Of a DNA stretch of 64,000 nt, positions 5,985-55,894 are shown piece after piece. The position numbers were made by a program, and so were the translations under genes. The notes below the pieces were generated by a model, which saw only the letters and a program-made list of their open reading frames with translations, had not been told where the DNA came from and ran no database searches. The stretch spans positions 40,583-104,582 of the forward strand of contig JAISOG010000039.1 of the NCBI GenBank assembly GCA_031275795.1, read 5' to 3'. This DNA is from Candidatus Endomicrobiellum incisitermitis. Lineage in GTDB: Bacteria; Elusimicrobiota; Endomicrobiia; Endomicrobiales; Endomicrobiaceae. Numbering within the stretch: position 1 is the stretch's first letter; each line of letters begins with the position of its first letter.

Positions 5985-6041
5985 TTTTTCTACAAATATC
6001 GTCAATGTAAGTTGGTTTAATAGAGGTTTATTATAGATGCC

Positions 6042-6218
6042 ATGCTAGATGGTGCAGAAATGTTAGTACTTGTTGACAATAAAGGAAATGCAATATTGCC
6101 AATAGAAATTATTGACAGGCATGACAAACACATAATTTTAACCTATCAGCAGATCTCTACATACATTCCTGCTAATCTAATGCCTGACTTGACCATTTGG
6201 GCAAACACTCCACACTGA
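6042..6218 (+). pseudogene. Short orphan ORF, probable gene remnant
   Basis: 58-aa ORF MLDGAEMLVLVDNKGNAILPIEIIDRHDKHIILTYQQISTYIPANLMPDLTIWANTPH, not in the ORF track, next to repeats. Confidence 0.3.
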
Positions 6219-6239
6219 TATTAAACAGTATTACTTGAA

Positions 6240-6471
6240 ACAGAAATAGTTAGTTTGGTCTAGTTTAGAACCTTATCATAGTTACCTAAAAAAGCAGCTT
6301 ATGAGCAACAAACATTTAATATTGCAAATTAGCAGTGTCTGAAGCAAAATTCATTTAAGTCTTTCTTGTCCTTTCATTTTGCGAGTTTGCTAATTTGATT
6401 AAATGTTTGTTGCGATTGCTCTAGTAACATAGTTAAGATTCTAAACTGGACCAAACAAACTATTTCTGTGT
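6240..6471. repeat. Long imperfect palindrome family, copy A (full length)
   Basis: Ends acagaaatag / ctatttctgt are complementary; left arm ggtctagtttagaacctta...gagcaacaaacatttaat mirrors right arm attaaatgtttgttgcgattgctct...taagattctaaactggacc. Confidence 0.85.
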
Positions 6472-6481
6472 CAGTGGATAT

Positions 6482-6852
6482 TGATCTAGTTTAGAACCTT
6501 AACGGAGTTACCTCTAAGAGCATTCTATGAGCAATAAACATTTAATAGTTCAAAAGGGGTCTCTCTAAAAACCCTAATGCCTATAATTGCTGTGAATTTT
6601 TTGACAATGCAAGGCAAAAAACGCAGGGTTTATTGTGTCATAAACACAAGTTTTTTAACGCAGCAGTGTAGAAAAAGGCATAGTAAGGATATGCGTTAAG
6701 GTTTTTAGAGAGACCCTATGCATTGTCTAAAACAAAATTCATTTATGTCTTTCTTGTCTTTTCATTTTGCGAGTTTGCTAAATTGATTAAATGTTTACTT
6801 GCGATTGCTCTTAGTAACGTAGATAAGGTTCTAAACTAGACCAAACAAACTA
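6482..6852. repeat. Palindrome family, copy B (interrupted by a nested element)
   Basis: tgatctagtttagaaccttaacggagttacct...ttagtaacgtagataaggttctaaactagaccaaacaaac with about 160 bp inserted near the palindrome centre. Confidence 0.8.
6557..6716. mobile_element. Nested 160-bp MITE-like element with terminal inverted repeats
   Basis: gggtctctctaaaaacc at the left end and ggtttttagagagaccc at the right end are exact reverse complements over 17 bp; no ORF inside. Confidence 0.7.
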
Positions 6853-6900
6853 CTATATGTCAAACATTGTTATAAAAAAGCAAATAAATAAAAATTTTAA

Positions 6901-9510
6901 CTAATTTACAGAGTTTTTCTTAAATTCTAAAGTTTCATTATCTCTTTTTGACACATCCACTGTTACAGTGTCACCTTCCTTAAAATCTCCTGAAATAATT
7001 TTTGAGGAAAGAGGGTTTAATAAATAATTTTGTATTGCTCTTTTTAAAGGTCTTGCACCAAAAGCAGGATCATAACCTTTTAAAGACAAAAAGTCTTTTG
7101 CTTTGTCTGACAACCTTATATTGATTTTTCTTAACAAAAGACGGTCTTGTAATGTTTTAATTTGAATATCTACAATTTTATTTAGTTCATTAGAGTTTAA
7201 GTTTTTAAATATTATTATTTCATCAATCCTATTTAAAAATTCTGGTCTAAAAAAAGCACGCAATTGTTGATTTATATTAATTTTAATCTCTTCATCATCT
7301 TTACCAGGCTGAATATATTGTGAACCTATATTTGAAGTCATAATTACAACAGTATTTTTAAAATCAACTGTTGTACCTTGCCCATCTGTAAGCCTACCAT
7401 CGTCAAACAGCTGAAGCATAATATTAAAAACTTCCGTGTTTGCTTTCTCAATTTCATCAAACAAGACAACACAATAAGGTCTCCTTCTTACAGCTTCTGT
7501 AAGTTGTCCACCTTCTTCAAAACCAACATATCCAGGAGGCGCACCTATGAGCCGCGAAACGCTATGTTTTTCCATGTATTCAGACATATCAATTCTTACT
7601 ATATTTTTTTCATCATCAAACAAAAGTTCCGCTAAAGCTTTTGCAAGTTCTGTTTTACCAACTCCAGTAGGACCCAAAAACAAGAATGAGCCTATAGGTT
7701 TATTTGGGTCAGAAATACCAGAACGTGACCGCCTTAGAGCATTTGATATAGCAACTATTGCTTCATCTTGCCCTATGACTCTATTATGAAGGTTAGTTTC
7801 CATTTTAAGAAGCTTTTGAACTTCGCTTTGCATCATACGGCTAACAGGGACACCTGTCCACTTACTTACAACTTGAGCAATATCATCTTCATCAACTTCT
7901 TCCTTTAACATCTTTTTTTCTTTTTGAAGCTCAAGAAGTTTCTTGTTTTCCTCTTCAAGCTGTTTTTGCATATTTGGAATTTTTCCATAACGAATCTCTG
8001 CAACTAAGTTCAATTCACCATTTCTTTCAGCTTTTTGTTCTTCAATTTTTATGTTTTCTATCTTTTCTTTAAGATGCCTTATTTGGGAAATAGAATCTTT
8101 TTCCTTTTCCCAATGAACTTTCATATCGGCAGCTTCATGTTTTAGCTCATCTATCTCTTTTTCAATATTTAAAAGCCGCTCTTTAGATCCAGGATCAGTT
8201 TCTTTTTTTACAGCTTGTTTTTCTATTTCAAGTTGTCTTATTTTACGTTCAATAGAGTCTAACTCTGTAGGCATAGAATCTATCTCTATCCTAAGCCTAC
8301 TTGCAGATTCATCAATTAAATCTATTGCTTTATCTGGCAAGTGTCTGTCTGTTATATATCGTGCACTTAAAGTTGCAGCTGACACCAATGCAGAATCCTT
8401 TATTTTTACACCATGGTGCACTTCATACTTTTCTTTTATTCCTCTTAAAATCGCTATTGTATCATCGATAGACGGCTCTCCTGCAAAAACAGGTTGAAAA
8501 CGCCTTTCTAAAGCAGCATCCTTTTCAATATATTTTCTATACTCATCTAAAGTCGTAGCTCCAACAAGACGAAGTTCTCCTCTAGCAAGCATTGGCTTTA
8601 ACATATTAGCTGCATCAACTGCACCTTCAGAAGCACCTGCACCCACTATTGTATGTAGCTCGTCTATAAATAAAATTACAGCTCCGTTTGCACTCTCAAT
8701 TTCCTTTAGAACTGCTTTAAGTCTATCTTCAAACTCACCTCTATATTTGGCGCCTGCTATTAATGAACCTAAATCTAAAGCAATAATTTTCTTATGTTTT
8801 AAACTTTCTGGAACATCACCTGAAACTATTCTTTGCGCAAGACCTTCAACTATTGCAGTTTTTCCTACTCCCGGATCCCCAATTATAACAGGATTATTTT
8901 TTGTCCTCCTTGACAAAACTTGTACACATCTACGTATTTCTTCATCTCTACCTATAACCGGGTCTAACTTTCCTTTTTTGGCTAAATCAGTTAAATCCTT
9001 CCCATACTTTTCTAATGCTTGGTACTTATCTTCAGGATTTTGGTCTCTAACACGCTGATCCCCTCTGATACTTACAAGAGCTTTCAAAATAGAATCTTTT
9101 GAAATACCATATTTTTTTAATATCTTAGAAGACTTTTCTGAACCTTCTTCTGCAATTGAAATTAATATATGTTCTGTAGAAACAAACTCGTCTTTCAAAT
9201 TTTTAGCAACCTTTTCTGAATTGTTTAAAATTTTATTTAAAACTGAAGACAAAAAAAGATTACCACCTGAAACTTTAGGTTTCTTTTCGAGTTCAGAAAT
9301 TAACTCGTTAGAAATGTTTGCTAATAACATAGTCTCTTGACCAGTAGCAGCAATTTTTTTAATTATCGCTCCGACTATACCATCTTGCTGTTTAACCAAT
9401 GCATACAATAAATGTTCTGAAGTTATCTCTTGATTTCCATAGTCTAAAGCTATATTTTGAGCGTCTGCTAAAGCTTCTTGAGACTTAACAGTAAACTTAG
9501 AAATATTCAT
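6901..9510 (-). CDS. clpB: ATP-dependent chaperone ClpB
   Basis: Two AAA modules ([27 protein letters not shown]), middle coiled coil, N-terminal Clp repeat. Confidence 0.97.
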
Positions 9511-9539
9511 TTCTCCTCCTATTAGAAGACTAATAATAA

Positions 9540-12500
9540 CTATTTTTTTGCACTAAACATATTGGACTGTAAGTCTACTAAAAAGTTTTTTATATATTCA
9601 ACTATATTTACGTTATATGTATCTTTTATTAATTTAAAAACATAATGTTTACCAGGAACAAACTCTATTTTATTTGAATAATCATTTATTAACCTTGTAA
9701 TATCTAAATTAGAAAAATCTAAAGTTTTAAAAAAGTATATATATATATACTTAATATCTTCAGAAATTCTTTCTATCCCTATTTTTTGAGCTAAAAGTCT
9801 TAAATTGGTTATATTTAATAACATCTGTGTTTCTTGTGGAATCTTTCCGAAACGATCTAAAAGTTCTAATTTTATACCATCTAATGCTTCTTGACTACTT
9901 GCATCAGAAAGTTTTCTATAAAATAAAATTCTTATATCCTCTTGAGCAATATAATCTTGAGGAATCAACGCATTAATCTGTAAATCTATAACTGTATTTT
10001 CTTGTGTTTCTGTTTTTGCTATGTCCTCATTTCCTTTAAGTTTACTGCCTTCCTCTTTTAAAAGCTTAGAAAACATATCATAACCTATATCTCTTACAAA
10101 ACCGTGCTGGCTTTTAGACAAAATACCACCAGCACCTCTAATTTCTAAATCCTTTAACGCAAGCCTAAACCCAGAACCTAACTCGCTAAAATCTTTCATG
10201 GCCTCAAGCCTTTTAGTTGCTTCATCGCTTAACATTTTATCCTTATACAATAAGTAACAATAAGCCTTTTGTCCATTTCTGCCAATTCTTCCCCTCAACT
10301 GATAAAGCTGTGAAAGACCAAAACTTTCCGCCTCTTCTATTATCATAGTGTTAACTGAAGGGATATCAAGTCCAGACTCTATTATCGTAGTGGCAATCAA
10401 ACCATCTAATTTTAAATTTATAAATTTCCACATTACATTCTCTATGTCTTTAGTGCGCATCTGCCCATCAATAACGCCAAGTCTTAATCCAGAAATAAGT
10501 TTTTCAATAGTGCGCGCTTTTGTTAAAATTGTTTCAACTTTATTATAAACATAAAAAAACTGTCCACTTCTTGATAACTCAGCTTCAATAATAGTTTTTA
10601 CTAAGTTGTCATCATATAATGCAAGGTTTGTCTCTATAGGTAACCGTCCATATGGAGGTGTCTCTATTAAAGACAAATCTCTAAATCCAGACAACGCAGA
10701 AGACAATGTTCGAGGAATTGGAGTTGCTGAAAGTAACAAAATGTCTATATGTTTTTTTAAAGATTTAATTTTTTCTTTTTGTTTTACACCAAACTTATGC
10801 TCTTCATCTATTATTAAAAGCCCTAAATTTTTAAAGTCTACATCTTTCTGCAATAATCTATGAGTACCAACAACTATATCTATTGCACCTTTTTTTAGGT
10901 CTTCTATTGTTTTTTTCTGTGCGTACTTAGACTGAAACTTACTTAAAACAACAACGCGTGTTGGGAAAATAGACAATCTATCAGAAAAAGTATTGTAATG
11001 TTGTTGTGCTAAAACTGTTGTAGGCACAAGCACAGCAACTTGCTTACCATTTGTTACCACCTTAAAAGCTGTGCGTAGCGCAATTTCAGTTTTCCCGTAC
11101 CCAACATCACCACAAATTAGCCTTTCCATGGGATAACTTTTAGAAAAATCATTGTTTATATCTTCTATAGCTTTTAATTGACCTTGAGTTTCCTCATATG
11201 GAAAAGAGTCTTCTAGTTCTTTTTCCCAAGTTGTTTGCTTTTCTAAAGGTAGCCTTTTAACTAAACTTCTCTGCACGTAGAGCTGTAAAAGTTCTTGAGC
11301 AAACTTTGCAACAGCTTCACGTACTCTAGATTTTACTCTTTCCCAAGAAAGAGTATCCATGGAGTACAATTTAGGTTTAACTCCTTCAATGCCAATATAC
11401 TTTTTTACTGTCTTTATCTCTTCAGGAGGGACATAAAGTTTGTCTGAATTTTTATATTCTATACACAAATACTCACTAACACTATTTTGCCTTGAAATTG
11501 TTTTTAGTCCAACGTATCGCCCTATTCCGTATTTTTCGTGTACAACATAGTCCCCTTGCGATATTTCCCAAATCCCTTCTAAACGTCTACCTTCTTTAAC
11601 TTTGGGAAAATTTATAGGCCTTTTTTTATAAAGCATTTGCCTGCTAGAAACAAACAGCGTTTTTAAACTGTCTAAATAAAATCCTTCAGACAAATTACCG
11701 CACAAAAATTCAATATTTTTACAATTTAACTTGCTATCATATAAAATATCTACAATACGCTCTCTTTGGCCATCGTTGGCACAATAAATTTTAATCTTAA
11801 CATTTTGACTTAAGAAATCCTTCAGCAATTTCACAAAAAAGATTGTATCGCCTTGAAAGCCCGTAAAACTTTTATACCCCATATATTTTGATTTCACATT
11901 TAGCGGACTATTAATAAGAAGATCACATTTGTTAAGTTTTTTTTCTTCTTGTTTATCAATTGCATAGTCAAAATATATTATCGTTTCACTTTCTTTATTA
12001 TTGTAAAAGAAATAATCTTTGATAGTAAAACTGGAAGCAGAAATATTTACAGGAAATATCCAAACGTCTTTTAACGTAATATTTGAAAGTTGACTAGCTA
12101 AATCAAAACATCTTAAAGTTTCAATATTATCGTACTCAAAAACAATTCTCACTGGCATATCCAAAGATAATGGCCATACATCTACAATTTCACCTCTAAC
12201 TGCAAACTGCAGTTTTTCTTCTACATAATTTGTTCTTGTATATCCAAAAAAAGATAAAGATAATACAAGTTCGTTTAAAGTATACGATTTTCCTGCAGTG
12301 ATTTTAATGCCTAAATTGTCTTTGGGATTAGAAACTTTTATATTTATTGAATTATCAGTTGCACACACTATAAAATTATTTAACATTTTTATTTTTTCTG
12401 TAGTGACAATTCTTGTTTGCACATCGTCATACGGAAATAAAAAAATGTCGATACTATCTTTAAAAAAACACTTTAAATCATCATAAAAAGAATTTAGTTC

Positions 12501-12623
12501 TTCAGATTTAACAAAAGTGAAAATACGAAGTGTAGAATTGTTTAGACTTTTTACTTGGTTAATATACCTAAACAAAAAATGCGCTTTTGCAGATACGTTA
12601 ACTCCTGACAAATAAGTTATCAT
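9540..12623 (-). CDS. mfd: Transcription-repair coupling factor
   Basis: [17 protein letters not shown] (RID/CarD-like), [47 protein letters not shown]-terminal TRCF domain. Confidence 0.96.
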
Positions 12624-12680
12624 AGCTTATAAAATGAGTTTGTCCTTTTAGTTATAGAGAACTATTAAACCACTAAAGTT

Positions 12681-12830
12681 AATCTAGATATCTACGGTAC
12701 CAGAGCAATCGCACAGACACTCAAATTTTGTATCAGTTCAGTAGTTTTTGGTTGATCTAGTTTAGAACCTTAACTCCGTTACTAGAGCAATCACAATAAA
12801 CAATTAGCAAACTTCCCTCCACCTCATAGT
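12681..12830. repeat. Degenerate/truncated copies of the palindrome family
   Basis: aatctagatatctacggtaccagagcaatcgca (right-arm-like, reversed) and gatctagtttagaaccttaactccgttactagagcaatcac...aattagcaaac. Confidence 0.55.
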
Positions 12831-13050
12831 AGTTAGCTTGGTCTAGTTTAGAATCTTATCGGAGTTACCTCAAAGAGCAGCTTATGAGCAATAAACATTT
12901 AATATTTCAAATTAGCACTGTTTGAAGCAAAATTCACTTATGTCTTTCTTGTCTTTTCATTTTGCGAGTTTGCTAATTTGATTAAATGTTTATTGCGATT
13001 GCTCTTAGTAACGTAGATAAGATACTAAACTGGACCAACAAAACTAATAT
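12828..13050. repeat. Palindrome family, copy C (full length)
   Basis: cttggtctagtttagaatcttatcggagttacctcaaagagc...attgcgattgctcttagtaacgtagataagatactaaactggacc. Confidence 0.82.
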
Positions 13051-13130
13051 ATGTCAGGGGGAGGTGGAGGCAAGTTTGACTGTCTGTGCAGCGTATTAGC
13101 GGTTGCTTAATGACTAGAAAACTATGCTGG

Positions 13131-13262
13131 CTTGATCTAGTTTAGAATCTTAACGGAGTTACCTCAAAGAGCGACTTATGAGCAATAAACAGATAAGTCT
13201 TTTTTGTCTTATTATTTTGCAAGTTTGCTAATTTGATTAAATGTTTACTTGCGATTGCTCTT
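13131..13262. repeat. Palindrome family, copy D (internally deleted)
   Basis: cttgatctagtttagaatcttaacggagttacctcaaagagcgacttatgagcaataaac joined directly to agataagtc...tttgattaaatgtttacttgcgattgctctt; outer right arm missing. Confidence 0.75.
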
Positions 13263-13413
13263 GTAGATTGATAAAAGATTTTTGTCTATCATTCTTTTTC
13301 TTTTATCGCTTTTGAAAGTTAATATAATAAATGTGTATGAGACTAGTTTAATGGTCAATAAAATAAAATATAATTTTGTATAATATGAAAAAATATAAAA
13401 AGGGATATAGAAA

Positions 13414-23650: not shown

Positions 23651-23730
23651 TCTTTTAGTTTAGTATCTTAGTAAAGTTATCTTAAAAGCGCAATTTAAGC
23701 GATAAACATTTAATATTGCAAATTTGAAGG
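23651..23730. repeat. Degenerate left half of the palindrome family (copy H)
   Basis: ttttagtttagtatcttagtaaagttatcttaaaagcgcaatttaagcgataaacatttaatattgcaaatt resembles the left arm. Confidence 0.6.
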
Positions 23731-28642: not shown

Positions 28643-28791
28643 AGAAGATGCCCACCTTTAATTCTTTTACTTTCTGTAGCTTTTAATATAACTTTTTCAT
28701 AGTAACCCTTTTTTTAATTTGTATATTTAAAATCATAAAAATTTTACATAATGTATCTTAATAATTTCCATTTAAAGGAGATCATTATTTT

Positions 28792-28905
28792 TAAGTCTTT
28801 TTTGTCCTATCATTTTGCGAGTTTGCTAATTTGATTAAATGTTTGTTGCGATTGATCTTAGTAACGTAGATAAGGTCCTAAACTAGACCAAACAAACTAC
28901 TATAG
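28792..28905. repeat. Palindrome family, copy E (right half)
   Basis: aagtcttttttgtcctatcattttgcgagtttgctaatttgattaaatgtttgttgcgattgatcttagtaacgtagataaggtcctaaactagaccaaacaaacta. Confidence 0.78.
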
Positions 28906-28982
28906 GTCATAGTGAGGTGGTGGAGTTTGAGTTGTCTATGCGGCGTATGAGCGGCTGCTTAATGATTTAGGAATTATGCAGG

Positions 28983-29194
28983 ATAGGTCTAGTTTAGAAT
29001 CTTAACGGAGTTACCTCAAAGAGCGGTTTATGAGCTATAAACATTTAATATTGCAAATTAGCATTGTATGAAGCAAAATACATTTAAGTCTTTTTTGTCT
29101 TATCATTTTGCGAGTTTGCTAATTTGATTAAATGTTTGTTGCGATTGATCTTAGTAACGTAGATAAGATCCTAAACTAGACCAAACAAACTACT
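28983..29194. repeat. Palindrome family, copy F (full length)
   Basis: ggataggtctagtttagaatcttaacggagttacctcaaagagcgg...cgtagataagatcctaaactagaccaaacaaacta. Confidence 0.85.
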
Positions 29195-29205
29195 GGAGTG
29201 GGAAA

Positions 29206-29286
29206 GTTTGCTAATTTGATTAAATGGCTACCTTAGTCAATCACTCTGGTGACGTAGATAAGATTTTAAAACTAGACCAAACTCAA
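29206..29286. repeat. Palindrome family, copy G (degenerate right arm)
   Basis: gtttgctaatttgattaaatggctaccttagtcaatcactctggtgacgtagataagattttaaaactagaccaaac. Confidence 0.65.
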
Positions 29287-37676: not shown

Positions 37677-39696
37677 GTTAGTTTCTAAATTTAAGCCTTC
37701 AGGCGACCAACCACAAGCAATAGAAAAGCTTTATAATAATTATTTAAATGGTAAACAATCTCAAGTTTTGCTTGGCGTTACAGGTTCCGGAAAGACTTTT
37801 GTGATGGCAAATCTTATCGAGAAACTTCAAAAACCGACGTTGATAATGTCGCCAAATAAAATTTTGGCTGCTCAAACTTATGCAGAGTTTAGATCGTTTT
37901 TTCCTAATAATGCTGTAGAGTATTTTATATCATATTATGATTATTATCAGCCGGAGGCTTATATACCCTCAAGTGACACGTATATAGAAAAGGATGCTTC
38001 AATAAATGACCATATAGATAGATTACGCCTTAAAGCTACGACTTCTCTGCTTGAAAGAAAAGATGTTATAGTAGTAGCTTCGGTATCCTGCATATACAAT
38101 TTAGGGTCTCCTAAAGATTATCAAAATATGTGTATTAAAATAGTGGTTGGGGAAGACACGTCCATGGATAATCTTTTAAATGAGCTTATATCTAGCCATT
38201 ATGAAAGGAATAACGTTGAGTTTATTCGTGGAAGGTTTAGAGTCAAAGGTGACACTGTAGAAATTTTTCCTGCTTATCTTGAGATGGCAATAAGAGTTGA
38301 ATTTTTTGGTGATACAATAGAAAGTATAAAAGAGTTTAATCCAATCACCAGAGAAATTATTTCTAAAAAAAAGCAATCTTATATTTATCCTGCAAAGCTT
38401 TTTGTAGTAGGTAAAGAAAAAATTGATAAAGCTATAAAAAGTATAGAGATTGAGTTAGAAGAACGTCTTAGAGTGTTAAAATCTCAAAATAAACTTTTAG
38501 AAGCTCAACGTTTAAAACAGAGAACTAAATATGATATGGAAATGTTGAGAGAAACTGGTTTTTGTAATGGTGTTGAAAATTATTCAAGACATCTTTCTGG
38601 GAATTTGCCAGGAGTTAGACCAACTACATTGATAGACTATTTTTTACAAGAAAATGATGATTTTTTAATGATAGCAGATGAATCTCATATTTTGTTACCT
38701 CAGGTAAGAGGGATGTATGAAGGAGATAGAAGCAGAAAACAAACTCTTGTCGATTTTGGATTTAGACTGCCTTCAGCTCTAGATAATAGACCTATGAAAT
38801 TTAGAGAATTTGAGAGTTTAATAAGAAAGTTTATGATGGTTTCTGCTACGCCAGGAAAGTATGAGCTAGAAAGAAGTAAAGATAATATAGTAGATTTAAT
38901 TATTAGACCTACAGGGTTAGTTGATCCAGAAGTTGTTGTACGATCTATTAATGGTCAAGTACGTGACTTGATGGAAGAGGTTCAAAAAACTGTTAATAAA
39001 AAGCAGAGAGTTTTGATAACCACCTTAACGAAAAAAATGTCAGAAGATTTGACGGTTTTTCTTAAAGAAAAAGGTTTTAGAGTGGAATATTTACATTCTG
39101 AAATAGATGCTTTAACAAGAATAGAGTTACTTAAAAATTTACGTCTTGGGAAGTTTGATGTTTTAGTAGGGATTAATCTTTTAAGAGAAGGTTTAGATTT
39201 ACCAGAAGTTTCGCTAGTTGTGGTTTTAGATGCAGATAAAGAAGGTTTTTTACGCTCTGAATCGACTTTAATACAGATTTGTGGAAGAGCAGCAAGGAAT
39301 GTTGATGGGCGCGTCATATTTTATGCAGATGTTATCACAGGTTCAATGCAAAAAGCATTGACAGAGATGGCCAGGCGTAGAAGAAAGCAATTAGAGTACA
39401 ACAAAAAAAATAATATTAAGCCAAAAACAATAATTAAAGCAGTTCATGAACTTGAAGAGTTTAAAAACTTATCAAAAAAAGAATCCCTTAAATATATGAT
39501 GTCAGAAGAAAAGCTTGATTATAAAATTACCAAAAAGAATATAGACTCGATAATTAAAGATATAGAAATGCAGATGAAAACTGCGGCAGAAAATTTAGAT
39601 TTTGAGTCTGCTACTATTTTAAGAGATAGAATGCTGGAACTTAAAAGTATGAAATCTGATAGTACTGTTGCTAAAATGCCAAAACCTGCTAGATAA
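37663..39696 (+). CDS. uvrB: Excinuclease ABC subunit B
   Basis: GVTGSGKTFVMANLI, YDYYQPEAYIP, ADESHILLPQVRGMYEGDRSRK, C-terminal UVR motif. Confidence 0.97.
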   Translation: MEKFKLVSKFKPSGDQPQAIEKLYNNYLNGKQSQVLLGVTGSGKTFVMANLIEKLQKPTLIMSPNKILAAQTYAEFRSFFPNNAVEYFISYYDYYQPEAYIPSSDTYIEKDASINDHIDRLRLKATTSLLERKDVIVVASVSCIYNLGSPKDYQNMCIKIVVGEDTSMDNLLNELISSHYERNNVEFIRGRFRVKGDTVEIFPAYLEMAIRVEFFGDTIESIKEFNPITREIISKKKQSYIYPAKLFVVGKEKIDKAIKSIEIELEERLRVLKSQNKLLEAQRLKQRTKYDMEMLRETGFCNGVENYSRHLSGNLPGVRPTTLIDYFLQENDDFLMIADESHILLPQVRGMYEGDRSRKQTLVDFGFRLPSALDNRPMKFREFESLIRKFMMVSATPGKYELERSKDNIVDLIIRPTGLVDPEVVVRSINGQVRDLMEEVQKTVNKKQRVLITTLTKKMSEDLTVFLKEKGFRVEYLHSEIDALTRIELLKNLRLGKFDVLVGINLLREGLDLPEVSLVVVLDADKEGFLRSESTLIQICGRAARNVDGRVIFYADVITGSMQKALTEMARRRRKQLEYNKKNNIKPKTIIKAVHELEEFKNLSKKESLKYMMSEEKLDYKITKKNIDSIIKDIEMQMKTAAENLDFESATILRDRMLELKSMKSDSTVAKMPKPAR

Positions 39697-39735
39697 GTAT
39701 ATAACTAGCGCGTTTTTGAAAATTATAATATTCTA

Positions 39736-39852
39736 ATGTCTTCAAAAAGATCTCTTAAAAAGTCCAAAATAGTAGAGCTTTATAATCAATTCGTGTTTTG
39801 CAATAAATGCTCTCTTGCGTTGATAAAATTTGTGCGCGGTGAGGAGGTTTAA
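39736..39852 (+). pseudogene. Short truncated ORF, possible type-4 uracil-DNA glycosylase N-terminal remnant
   Basis: 38-aa MSSKRSLKKSKIVELYNQFVFCNKCSLALIKFVRGEEV; CxxCxL pattern only. Confidence 0.3.
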
Positions 39853-39854
39853 GA

Positions 39855-40112
39855 TTGGCAGAAATTAAGAAAACACCTCAAGAAAGACATATCGGCAGAA
39901 TGGCTTTGTATAACAGGACTATAATCCAAGCTATCTCTGACAAATTAGATATTTCAAATGGTGAGGCATTGCAAAAATTTTATAATTCCGAGCTTTATAT
40001 CCAGTATTCTGATGAAGATACAAAGGTTTGGCATTTCAGCTGCAAGGCCCTTGCTGACATGCTTGCCTATGAATTACGGCATGGTAAGCTTGTAATACCA
40101 TCTGAGGTGTAA
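39855..40112 (+). CDS. Small hypothetical protein, possibly partner of the DUF3791 gene
   Basis: 85-aa ORF, TTG start, 3 bp before the next ORF. Confidence 0.5.
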   Translation: MAEIKKTPQERHIGRMALYNRTIIQAISDKLDISNGEALQKFYNSELYIQYSDEDTKVWHFSCKALADMLAYELRHGKLVIPSEV

Positions 40113-40115
40113 ATT

Positions 40116-40331
40116 TTGAAAAATTACAATAACATTGAATTCGTTACATTTTGCATAGAGATTTATGGAGGGGCAAAAGATATTAGTGGCAGGGAAGCTT
40201 ACGAAAAATTAAATTCAACAGGTGCATTAGATTATATAGATGAATGTTACGAAGGGTTGCATGTAGAAACCAATGATGGGATAGTTTGGAATATTGATGA
40301 ATTTATTAATAACAATCAAGTTACTGTTTAA
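40116..40331 (+). CDS. DUF3791 family protein
   Basis: EFVTFCIEIYGGAKDISGREAYEKLNSTGALDYIDECYEGLHVETNDGIVWNIDEFI fits the DUF3791 pattern. Confidence 0.65.
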   Translation: MKNYNNIEFVTFCIEIYGGAKDISGREAYEKLNSTGALDYIDECYEGLHVETNDGIVWNIDEFINNNQVTV

Positions 40332-40717
40332 TTCTATGTGTGTATTCACCTTTGCAGCATAAGTTTATTAGAGCCAATGCTCGCGTTTCCATAGGTTGGC
40401 ATAGTGTTTCTTCTGAACGAAAAATCCTTGTAAAATAAGGCATTTTATAGGTTGGACTGAATTGTTGCGAAAAATAAATCCCAAAGGCGTAGTCAAACAC
40501 TCTATACATTGTTTTAGGTCTGAATCGACCTCTTCCCATGTTTAGCATGAACTAATTTGAAAGACTATTTGGAAATTGGTGTAATTAATCTATCATGCTG
40601 ATATTAAAAATTTTACAAAAATTCAAAAATGCAACCTTAAGATGTAAATTTACTGAAAAAAATTACAGCTTTGGTGATACATATATTTTATGATAGAAAT
40701 TTGATTTATGACGAGGC

Positions 40718-53802: not shown

Positions 53803-54486
53803 ATGAACAATACTAATTTACATTATGTAGGCCATAGAAGAAGGTTGAAAGATAAATTTTATTTAAATGGGTTACATGCTTTGGCAGATTACGAAGTCTT
53901 AGAACTAATTTTGACGTATGTTATTATAAGAAAAGATGTAAAAGTTTTAGCTAAAGAGCTGATTTCTAATTTTGGAAGTTTGAAGCAAGTTGTTGATGCA
54001 AATGTTGAGGATTTAAAAAAGATTAAAGGCATTTCTGAAAATGTTGCCATCTTTATATTATTTTTAAAAAAGTTTGCTTCTTTGTATTGTTCCTTAGATA
54101 TAAAAGAGAAAAATGTTTTAGACTCTCCACAAAAAGTGTATAGTTATTTAATGTCAACCATAGGTACAGAGCAAGTTGAAAAAATCTATATTTTAAATTT
54201 AAATTCTAAAAATGAAATTTTGTCTTGTTTAGAAATAGAGAGTGGAACTGTAAATAAAACTTATTTAAACACTAGAAAGATTGCAGAAATTGCTTTAAAA
54301 CACAATGCAGTATCTGTTATAATAGCTCATAATCATCCTTCAGGGATTCTTGCTCCATCTAAAAATGACATAGATTCTACTTGCAGTATAAAAAGATCTT
54401 TAGGGATTATAGATATTTTTTTAGTAGACCATATAATAGTTACAAACAATAAATATTTCAGCTTTAAAGAGCATAATTTACTATGA
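53803..54486 (+). CDS. radC: RadC family JAB-domain protein
   Basis: N-terminal HhH, C-terminal AHNHPSGILAPSKNDI and VDHIIVTNNKYFSFKE. Confidence 0.92.
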   Translation: MNNTNLHYVGHRRRLKDKFYLNGLHALADYEVLELILTYVIIRKDVKVLAKELISNFGSLKQVVDANVEDLKKIKGISENVAIFILFLKKFASLYCSLDIKEKNVLDSPQKVYSYLMSTIGTEQVEKIYILNLNSKNEILSCLEIESGTVNKTYLNTRKIAEIALKHNAVSVIIAHNHPSGILAPSKNDIDSTCSIKRSLGIIDIFLVDHIIVTNNKYFSFKEHNLL

Positions 54487-54591
54487 TTATTATGTTGCTA
54501 TGTAATGAAAATTGCTACATTGTCAAAGTAACATGTGTACGTGTCTCTATGCACTATAAGAACCGTGTTTATACGGTAAAAGGAGAGCAAG

Positions 54592-55369: not shown

Positions 55370-55885
55370 ATGATAATAGTAAATACTGGAAATGGTAAAG
55401 GTAAAACAACTGCAGCGATTGGACAAGTTGTGCGTGCTTTGGGGCATAATTTAAAAGTGTGCATAATACAATTGTTTAAAAGTAGTGAGTTTTATGGAGA
55501 GCAAAATATTTTAAGAAATTTGGAAGGTTTAGATTTTTTTTATTTTGCAAAGGAGCACCCGTATTTTAATCATAATTTAAGTTTAAATGTTGTGCTAGAA
55601 CAATGTTTAGAAGCGCTAGATAAAATAAGAGAAATTTTAAAAGATAATAAAAAGTACGATTTAATAGTTTTAGAAGAGTTTAATGTAGCTTTAAGAGATA
55701 AATTTATAGATGTTAACATTTTTCTAAAATTGATAGAAGAACTGTCTTGTAATTCCAATATTATTGTTACAGGTAGGGGGGCTCCTACACAGCTAATAGA
55801 AGTTGCTGATTTGGTTACTGAAATGAAAGAAGTTAAACATCCATATAGCGTTGGCGCTAAAGTGCAAAAAGGTATAGAGTACTAA
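55370..55885 (+). CDS. Cob(I)alamin adenosyltransferase, CobA/BtuR type
   Basis: NTGNGKGKTTAAIGQVVRALGH, IVLEEFNVALR, VTGRGAP; start ATG 55370. Confidence 0.9.
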   Translation: MIIVNTGNGKGKTTAAIGQVVRALGHNLKVCIIQLFKSSEFYGEQNILRNLEGLDFFYFAKEHPYFNHNLSLNVVLEQCLEALDKIREILKDNKKYDLIVLEEFNVALRDKFIDVNIFLKLIEELSCNSNIIVTGRGAPTQLIEVADLVTEMKEVKHPYSVGAKVQKGIEY

Positions 55886-55894
55886 TTTAGAAAT

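Follow-up and report, generated by a model that had tools for sequence, protein, structure and literature searches.

A probable MITE-like palindrome family carrying a nested MITE, and apparently reshaped by recombination, in a clade of Candidatus Endomicrobiellum

The window analysed here is a 64,000-nucleotide stretch (30% GC) of the genome of Candidatus Endomicrobiellum incisitermitis (1.24 Mb in 49 contigs; own genome, G000). The palindrome at positions 6236-6473 is a member of a repeat family, here called O, with about 50 copies in this genome. A profile search recovered every copy listed in an earlier note on this stretch, including the degenerate ones (12747-12814, 12689-12718 and 23655-23728). 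The features of O and of a second palindrome, I, in the window are as follows:

6236..6473, + strand: complete short form of O (type copy A), arms extended on both sides (TGAAACAG...CTGTGTCA); profile score 233 over 6238-6472
6481..6552, + strand: 5' part of O element B (long form); profile hit 6481-6604; direct repeat D2, 82% to copy A
6553..6716, + strand: I element nested in O, a 164-bp palindrome with ends GGGTCTCTCTAAAAACC / GGTTTTTAGAGAGACCC; solo copies with target site duplications (TSDs) elsewhere
6717..6854, + strand: 3' part of O element B (long form); profile hit 6719-6854; repeats D1/D3
12689..12718, - strand: degenerate O fragment (weak); profile score 11
12747..12814, - strand: degenerate half O in opposite orientation; profile score 53
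12828..13047, + strand: complete short form of O (copy C); profile score 221, 91% identical to copy A
13048..13125, + strand: ~79-nt linker between tandem O copies, related to 28902-28980; one of the recurrent 78-79-nt gaps
13126..13265, + strand: O with an internal deletion and a truncated 3' end; profile score 104
23655..23728, + strand: degenerate O fragment; profile score 29.6
28790..28901, + strand: 3' part only of O; profile score 103
28902..28980, + strand: ~79-nt linker, from gaps in the profile search
28981..29199, + strand: complete short form of O (copy D); profile score 214, 89% to copy A
29202..29283, + strand: degenerate 3' part of O; profile score 46
55885..55893, no strand: empty insertion site; the ortholog in E. 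roisinitermitis carries a ~407-bp O+I, absent here and in E. cryptotermitis

The core of O is ~210-220 bp long, with ends TTGGTCTAGTTTAGAATCTTA...TAAGATTCTAAACTAGACCAA, and its arms are mutually paired over most of their length, enclosing a conserved inner hairpin (GCAAAAT...ATTTTGC). Longer arms are kept by some copies, extending to GACACAG...CTGTGTC (as at 6236-6473, where arms 6236-6285 and 6424-6473 are 84% complementary) or further to GTAAAAGTCCAAACACATGTTGGAC. The ends are ragged, some copies stopping at TTGGTCTAG and others reaching GACACAG or beyond, often on one side only; the terminal sequence usable for matching terminal inverted repeats (TIRs) is GGTCTAGTTTAGAA. The hairpins are far beyond chance, with fold z scores against dinucleotide shuffles of -12.0 (6236-6473), -9.4 (6481-6852), -9.4 (12829-13047) and -5.5 (28981-29198), bearing out the near-complete inverted repeat that the earlier note had described; its statement that the repeat encodes no ORF also holds, no ORF of at least 100 aa being found over the region. 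Tandem copies stand head to tail, separated by 6-8 nt or by a recurring linker of ~79 nt, and element B follows copy A in this way, 7 nt behind. The linkers at 13048-13125 and 28902-28980 resemble a coding-like repeated sequence beside other O copies, for example to the left of C10:18756 in Endomicrobium sp. Gx481_bin217, and are perhaps a captured host fragment.

Stretches fetched from the own genome contain 48 left and 50 right ends of O, 30 complete short copies and 16 hits to I, together occupying about 1% of the genome (~13 kb), so that the family extends well beyond the few copies first listed. When 84,980 species were scanned for exact matches to a conserved 23-mer of O, these were found only in E. 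roisinitermitis (G017), Endomicrobium sp. Gx481_bin217 (G023) and E. cryptotermitis (G060 and G061). With the own genome, O is thus present in four species, all belonging to Candidatus Endomicrobiellum/Endomicrobium (Elusimicrobiota), which live as endosymbionts within termite-gut flagellates (PMC11257099). The end motif GRTCTAGTTTAGAAYCTTA, allowing at most one mismatch, occurs in 4 of 42 genomes of the genus, with zero control matches, and O was not matched in the remaining genomes searched, within the genus and beyond. Flanking DNA is mostly 93-97% identical among the four O-bearing species. Wherever flanks are readable, copies lie outside ORFs, the sole exception being an overlap at a contig edge; a plasmid search with the repeat region gave no match, and a scan of viral contigs with the 23-mer found none. 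As the counts rest on searches and on stretches fetched from the genomes, those for G017, G023 and G060 are minimum values. In the own genome, contigs C8, C19, C29, C33, C35, C44, C48 and C49 end within O or I copies; because so many contigs end there, short-read assembly breaking at repeats, copy numbers of both elements are to be read as lower bounds.

The earlier note had counted 6482-6852 as one more related copy. An O element is indeed present there, but the copy is composite: within 6481-6854, the independent 164-bp palindrome I (6553-6716) replaces the TTAGC of the short form. I occupies this one fixed position in dozens of long O copies across the four species, and it recurs in ~15 further places of the own genome, nearly always at the single O position. 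It also occurs alone, as between a proA-like gene and a small-GTPase-like gene (names from by-eye reading of the translated sequence), a locus common to G023 and G060. Like a MITE, I has terminal inverted repeats, of 17 bp (GGGTCTSTCTAAAAACC at both ends; used in comparison as GGGTCTGTCTAAAAACC), and a target duplication of fixed length, 4 bp and A/T-rich. Perfect 4-bp TSDs stand next to GGGTCT...AGACCC at five solo sites (L188, AAAT; L205, TTAT; L203, TAAA; L207, AAAT; L200, TAAA), and are imperfect or absent at the remaining solo sites. A genus member without O (G020) carries at least eight solo copies of varied length and divergence (L190, L200, L202-L205, L207 and L209), which makes I older or more widely distributed than O. 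Its solo occurrence, its TIRs, its 4-bp TSDs and its presence in the O-less G020 mark I as an independent MITE, and the long form of O as a nested composite. A MITE usually, though not necessarily, has an autonomous relative sharing its TIRs; no transposase gene was found near the examined matches to the I TIR. An IS4-type source for I was tried and rejected: the DDE_Tnp_1 genes of G004 and G020 are without the I TIR.

Evidence for insertion of the composite comes from position ~55888 of the window, in the interval separating a stop codon from the following gene, where G017 carries O+I and both G000 and G060 have the simple sequence TAATTTAGAAATATG; by parsimony, with these two genomes empty, the element was inserted in G017. 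The comparison of empty sites in relatives that the earlier note had proposed thus yields a clean empty site, the one found for O. In G017 the site is flanked by ~6 bp that are imperfectly duplicated (AAATTTA/ATTTTA around AATTTA), and as a target duplication this is only suggestive; a clean TSD for O was established at none of the sites, and ends are ragged elsewhere. O is recently mobile, or still mobile. It resembles a MITE in being short, non-coding and high-copy, with inverted-repeat ends, and in this insertion polymorphism. Two transposase families were searched for: Y1_Tnp (PF01797) is absent from the own genome, which is 99.9% complete, control genomes being positive, and DDE_Tnp_1 is absent from the four O-bearing genomes.

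Variation among copies points to extensive exchange. In 50 aligned short copies of O, mean r2 between variable sites is 0.112 at less than 20 nt and falls to 0.025-0.05 for distant sites, near 1/n (~0.03 beyond 60 nt); by permutation, the contrast between near and far linkage has p 0.0045 with all copies taken together, 0.022 within the own genome and 0.001 in the other two. All four combinations are present in 328 of 351 site pairs, a count that recurrent mutation could raise, although recurrent mutation alone would not yield a decay of linkage with distance. Orthologous copies are mostly 84-95% alike, and several (84-87%) resemble each other no more than paralogs do (mean 84-86%), although their flanks are ~95% identical. 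At orthologous loci, short and long forms of O swap, and some G017 copies look like a long O that has lost I by a short deletion. Between colinear flanks at ~39.7 kb of the window, G060 carries O on the + strand and G017 carries O+I on the - strand, an apparent inversion in place, the alternative being independent insertions at one site. At 39660-40697, where G017 and G060 carry O, the own genome has ~1 kb with two small ORFs, and this looks like a variable locus.

Clusters of O coincide with breaks of synteny. The 5.8-kb clpB-mfd block (6885-12709) has O clusters at both edges in the window and lies elsewhere in G060 (C28:17487-23321), where its edges are without O; in G017, no match to the block was listed among the 40 candidate places scored out of 277. 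A 525-bp segment with flanking O likewise occupies different positions in G000 (C19) and G017 (C17). As a separate observation, the window has ~70 bp at 54480-54553 where G060 (~1.8 kb) and G017 hold extra coding-like DNA, consisting of an apparently broken sensor-kinase-like reading frame.

The earlier note had left a choice between a foldback or MITE family and a long RNA hairpin under structural constraint. The MITE half of that choice is favoured by high copy number, a position between genes, restriction to one lineage, the empty site and a nested element with TIRs and TSDs, while the RNA half finds neither covariation nor an Rfam match. Transcribed hairpins (3'-UTR, intercistronic or small RNA) whose fold is under selection, for instance for RNase III processing or mRNA stability, would accord with the very stable folds, with a position between genes that are mostly co-directional pairs, and with the orientation of O relative to those genes: O is antisense in 38 of 47 cases and sense in 9 (p 2.5e-5 if independent; the counts take in orthologous loci and are not fully independent), and the own genome taken by itself gives 14:4 (p 0.03). 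Paired columns are also slightly more conserved than unpaired ones (0.94 and 0.90), although the loop is nearly as conserved as the stems. The claim that arms differ between copies yet stay complementary proved essentially unsupported. The RNAalifold covariation term is +0.21, that is, no benefit, and when the full hairpin is imposed, pairing holds in 91.4% of cells, barely more than the 90.7% obtained with partners shuffled between copies. Of four polymorphic column pairs, three show no linkage (r2 0.015, 0.004 and 0.0), whereas 21/204 shows weak linkage (r2 0.144). The proposed check for compensatory changes gave 16 double-change pairs against 10.2 in shuffles, an excess formally beyond the shuffles but tiny, which shared ancestry alone can produce. 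Rfam at the gathering threshold found only tRNAs in the window, and its E-value search only weak, generic microRNA-like hairpin matches far below the cut-offs. As far as these data show, the O hairpin reflects inheritance from a founder rather than active upkeep in each copy; with the presence and form of O also varying between species at a given locus, selection for a structured RNA appears improbable. A role as outward promoter or intrinsic terminator, with orientation kept for that purpose, could draw on the same orientation bias, but a scan of 6000-6900 found neither a sigma-70-like promoter nor a terminator-like site (shuffles expect 3.3 and 0.4) and conservation across the whole arm exceeds what a signal needs, which makes such a role highly improbable. 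The strand bias itself may stem from one-strand insertion at replication forks or from RNA-level selection; local GC skew follows gene strand in short pieces and, because it does so, could not separate transcription from replication as the cause.

Insertion into single-stranded lagging-strand DNA by a RAYT (Y1) transposase, as for REP/BIME elements, would explain both tandem hairpins and strand bias, and agrees with head-to-tail clusters at 6-8-nt gaps and with the lack of a clear TSD for O. The absence of Y1_Tnp from the nearly complete own genome speaks against it, as do O units of ~220 bp rather than 20-40 bp and the DDE-type TSDs of the nested I, and we regard it as very unlikely. Somewhat less remote, though still unlikely, is a single origin of O followed by ectopic gene conversion and segmental duplication with no transposition at all. 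Such a history fits the mosaic structure and linkage decay, the tandem arrays and the carrying along of flanks (the 525-bp segment, the repeated 79-nt linkers), but at ~55888 O+I is placed precisely between stop codon and next gene with nothing else carried, and dozens of copies lie at otherwise unrelated loci with unique flanks. We likewise give little credence to O having been spread and homogenised mainly by DNA-hairpin recombination (for example strand-biased copying at forks) instead of by a transposase, and serving as a recombination module that shuffles gene blocks in a genome-reducing endosymbiont; if this were true, such recombination would have left the strand bias as its signature.

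The reading that we consider probable is that O is a lineage-specific, non-autonomous, MITE-like palindrome which, together with the nested MITE I, was transposed and then reshaped by recombination. O (core ~220 bp, arms sometimes extended) would have spread across the intergenic DNA of one Candidatus Endomicrobiellum clade, presumably moved in trans by a transposase since lost or outside the families searched. I, the wider-spread MITE, would have inserted once into a copy of O, after which the two propagated jointly as the long form beside the short form. Ectopic recombination and gene conversion among ~50 similar copies may dominate present-day evolution, altering copy number, short or long form and orientation, and rearranging flanking DNA. 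The repeats have the look of parasitic DNA, and any service to the host, in RNA processing or chromosome structure, would be secondary or absent. Against this reading stand the failure to find either searched transposase family, the ragged ends of O and the single clean empty site, and the 38:9 strand bias is not predicted by simple selfish spread.

By description, O is like the ERIC (IRU) elements of the Enterobacteriaceae, which are intergenic, palindromic and non-coding, number tens to hundreds of copies and are classed as MITEs (PMC10969869). O shares with them intergenic location, palindromic form, lack of coding capacity and high copy number. ERIC, an enterobacterial and vibrio element, is ~127 bp long, whereas O has a core of ~220 bp and carries the second MITE, I, at a fixed position; we know of no ERIC element with a second MITE at a fixed position. 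The Correia elements (CREE) of Neisseria carry promoters, and inversion has been reported for them (PMC10969869). Like O, they are intergenic, high-copy and hairpin-forming, and inversion of O is suggested at ~39.7 kb. Correia elements duplicate TA, whereas for O no TA duplication was established, and 6000-6900 has no promoter-like site. Rickettsia palindromic elements are also palindromes (~150 bp) amplified in an obligate intracellular bacterium, but they insert in frame within genes (PMC10969869), which O avoids. Another intracellular bacterium, Coxiella burnetii, has the MITEs QMITE1 and QMITE2, one of which yields a very long palindromic RNA, QMITE2 lying mostly in 3' UTRs or intergenic DNA (PMC5896051); the likeness to O is again one of description across different organisms, and QMITE2 has duplications of 7-11 nt whereas O has none that is clear. 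REPs, which like O are clustered extragenic hairpins, measure 20-40 bp and are linked to RAYT transposases (PMC3733652, PMC2817692), whereas the own genome is without Y1_Tnp.

O and I appear to be previously undescribed in this kind of genome: in the passages covered, the principal genome paper on these bacteria names transposons and CRISPRs but no such repeats (PMC11257099). The repeat system is ordinary in kind and unusual in its nesting, mosaic evolution and strand bias. Contigs that end in O or I are a caution for assemblies of these genomes. Short mobile DNA is active, or recently was, in bacteria living within termite-gut flagellates, and a comparison of four close species reveals how it inserts, nests, grows into tandems, undergoes conversion and apparently inverts in place; the system allows tests of how non-coding repeats reshape reduced bacterial genomes.
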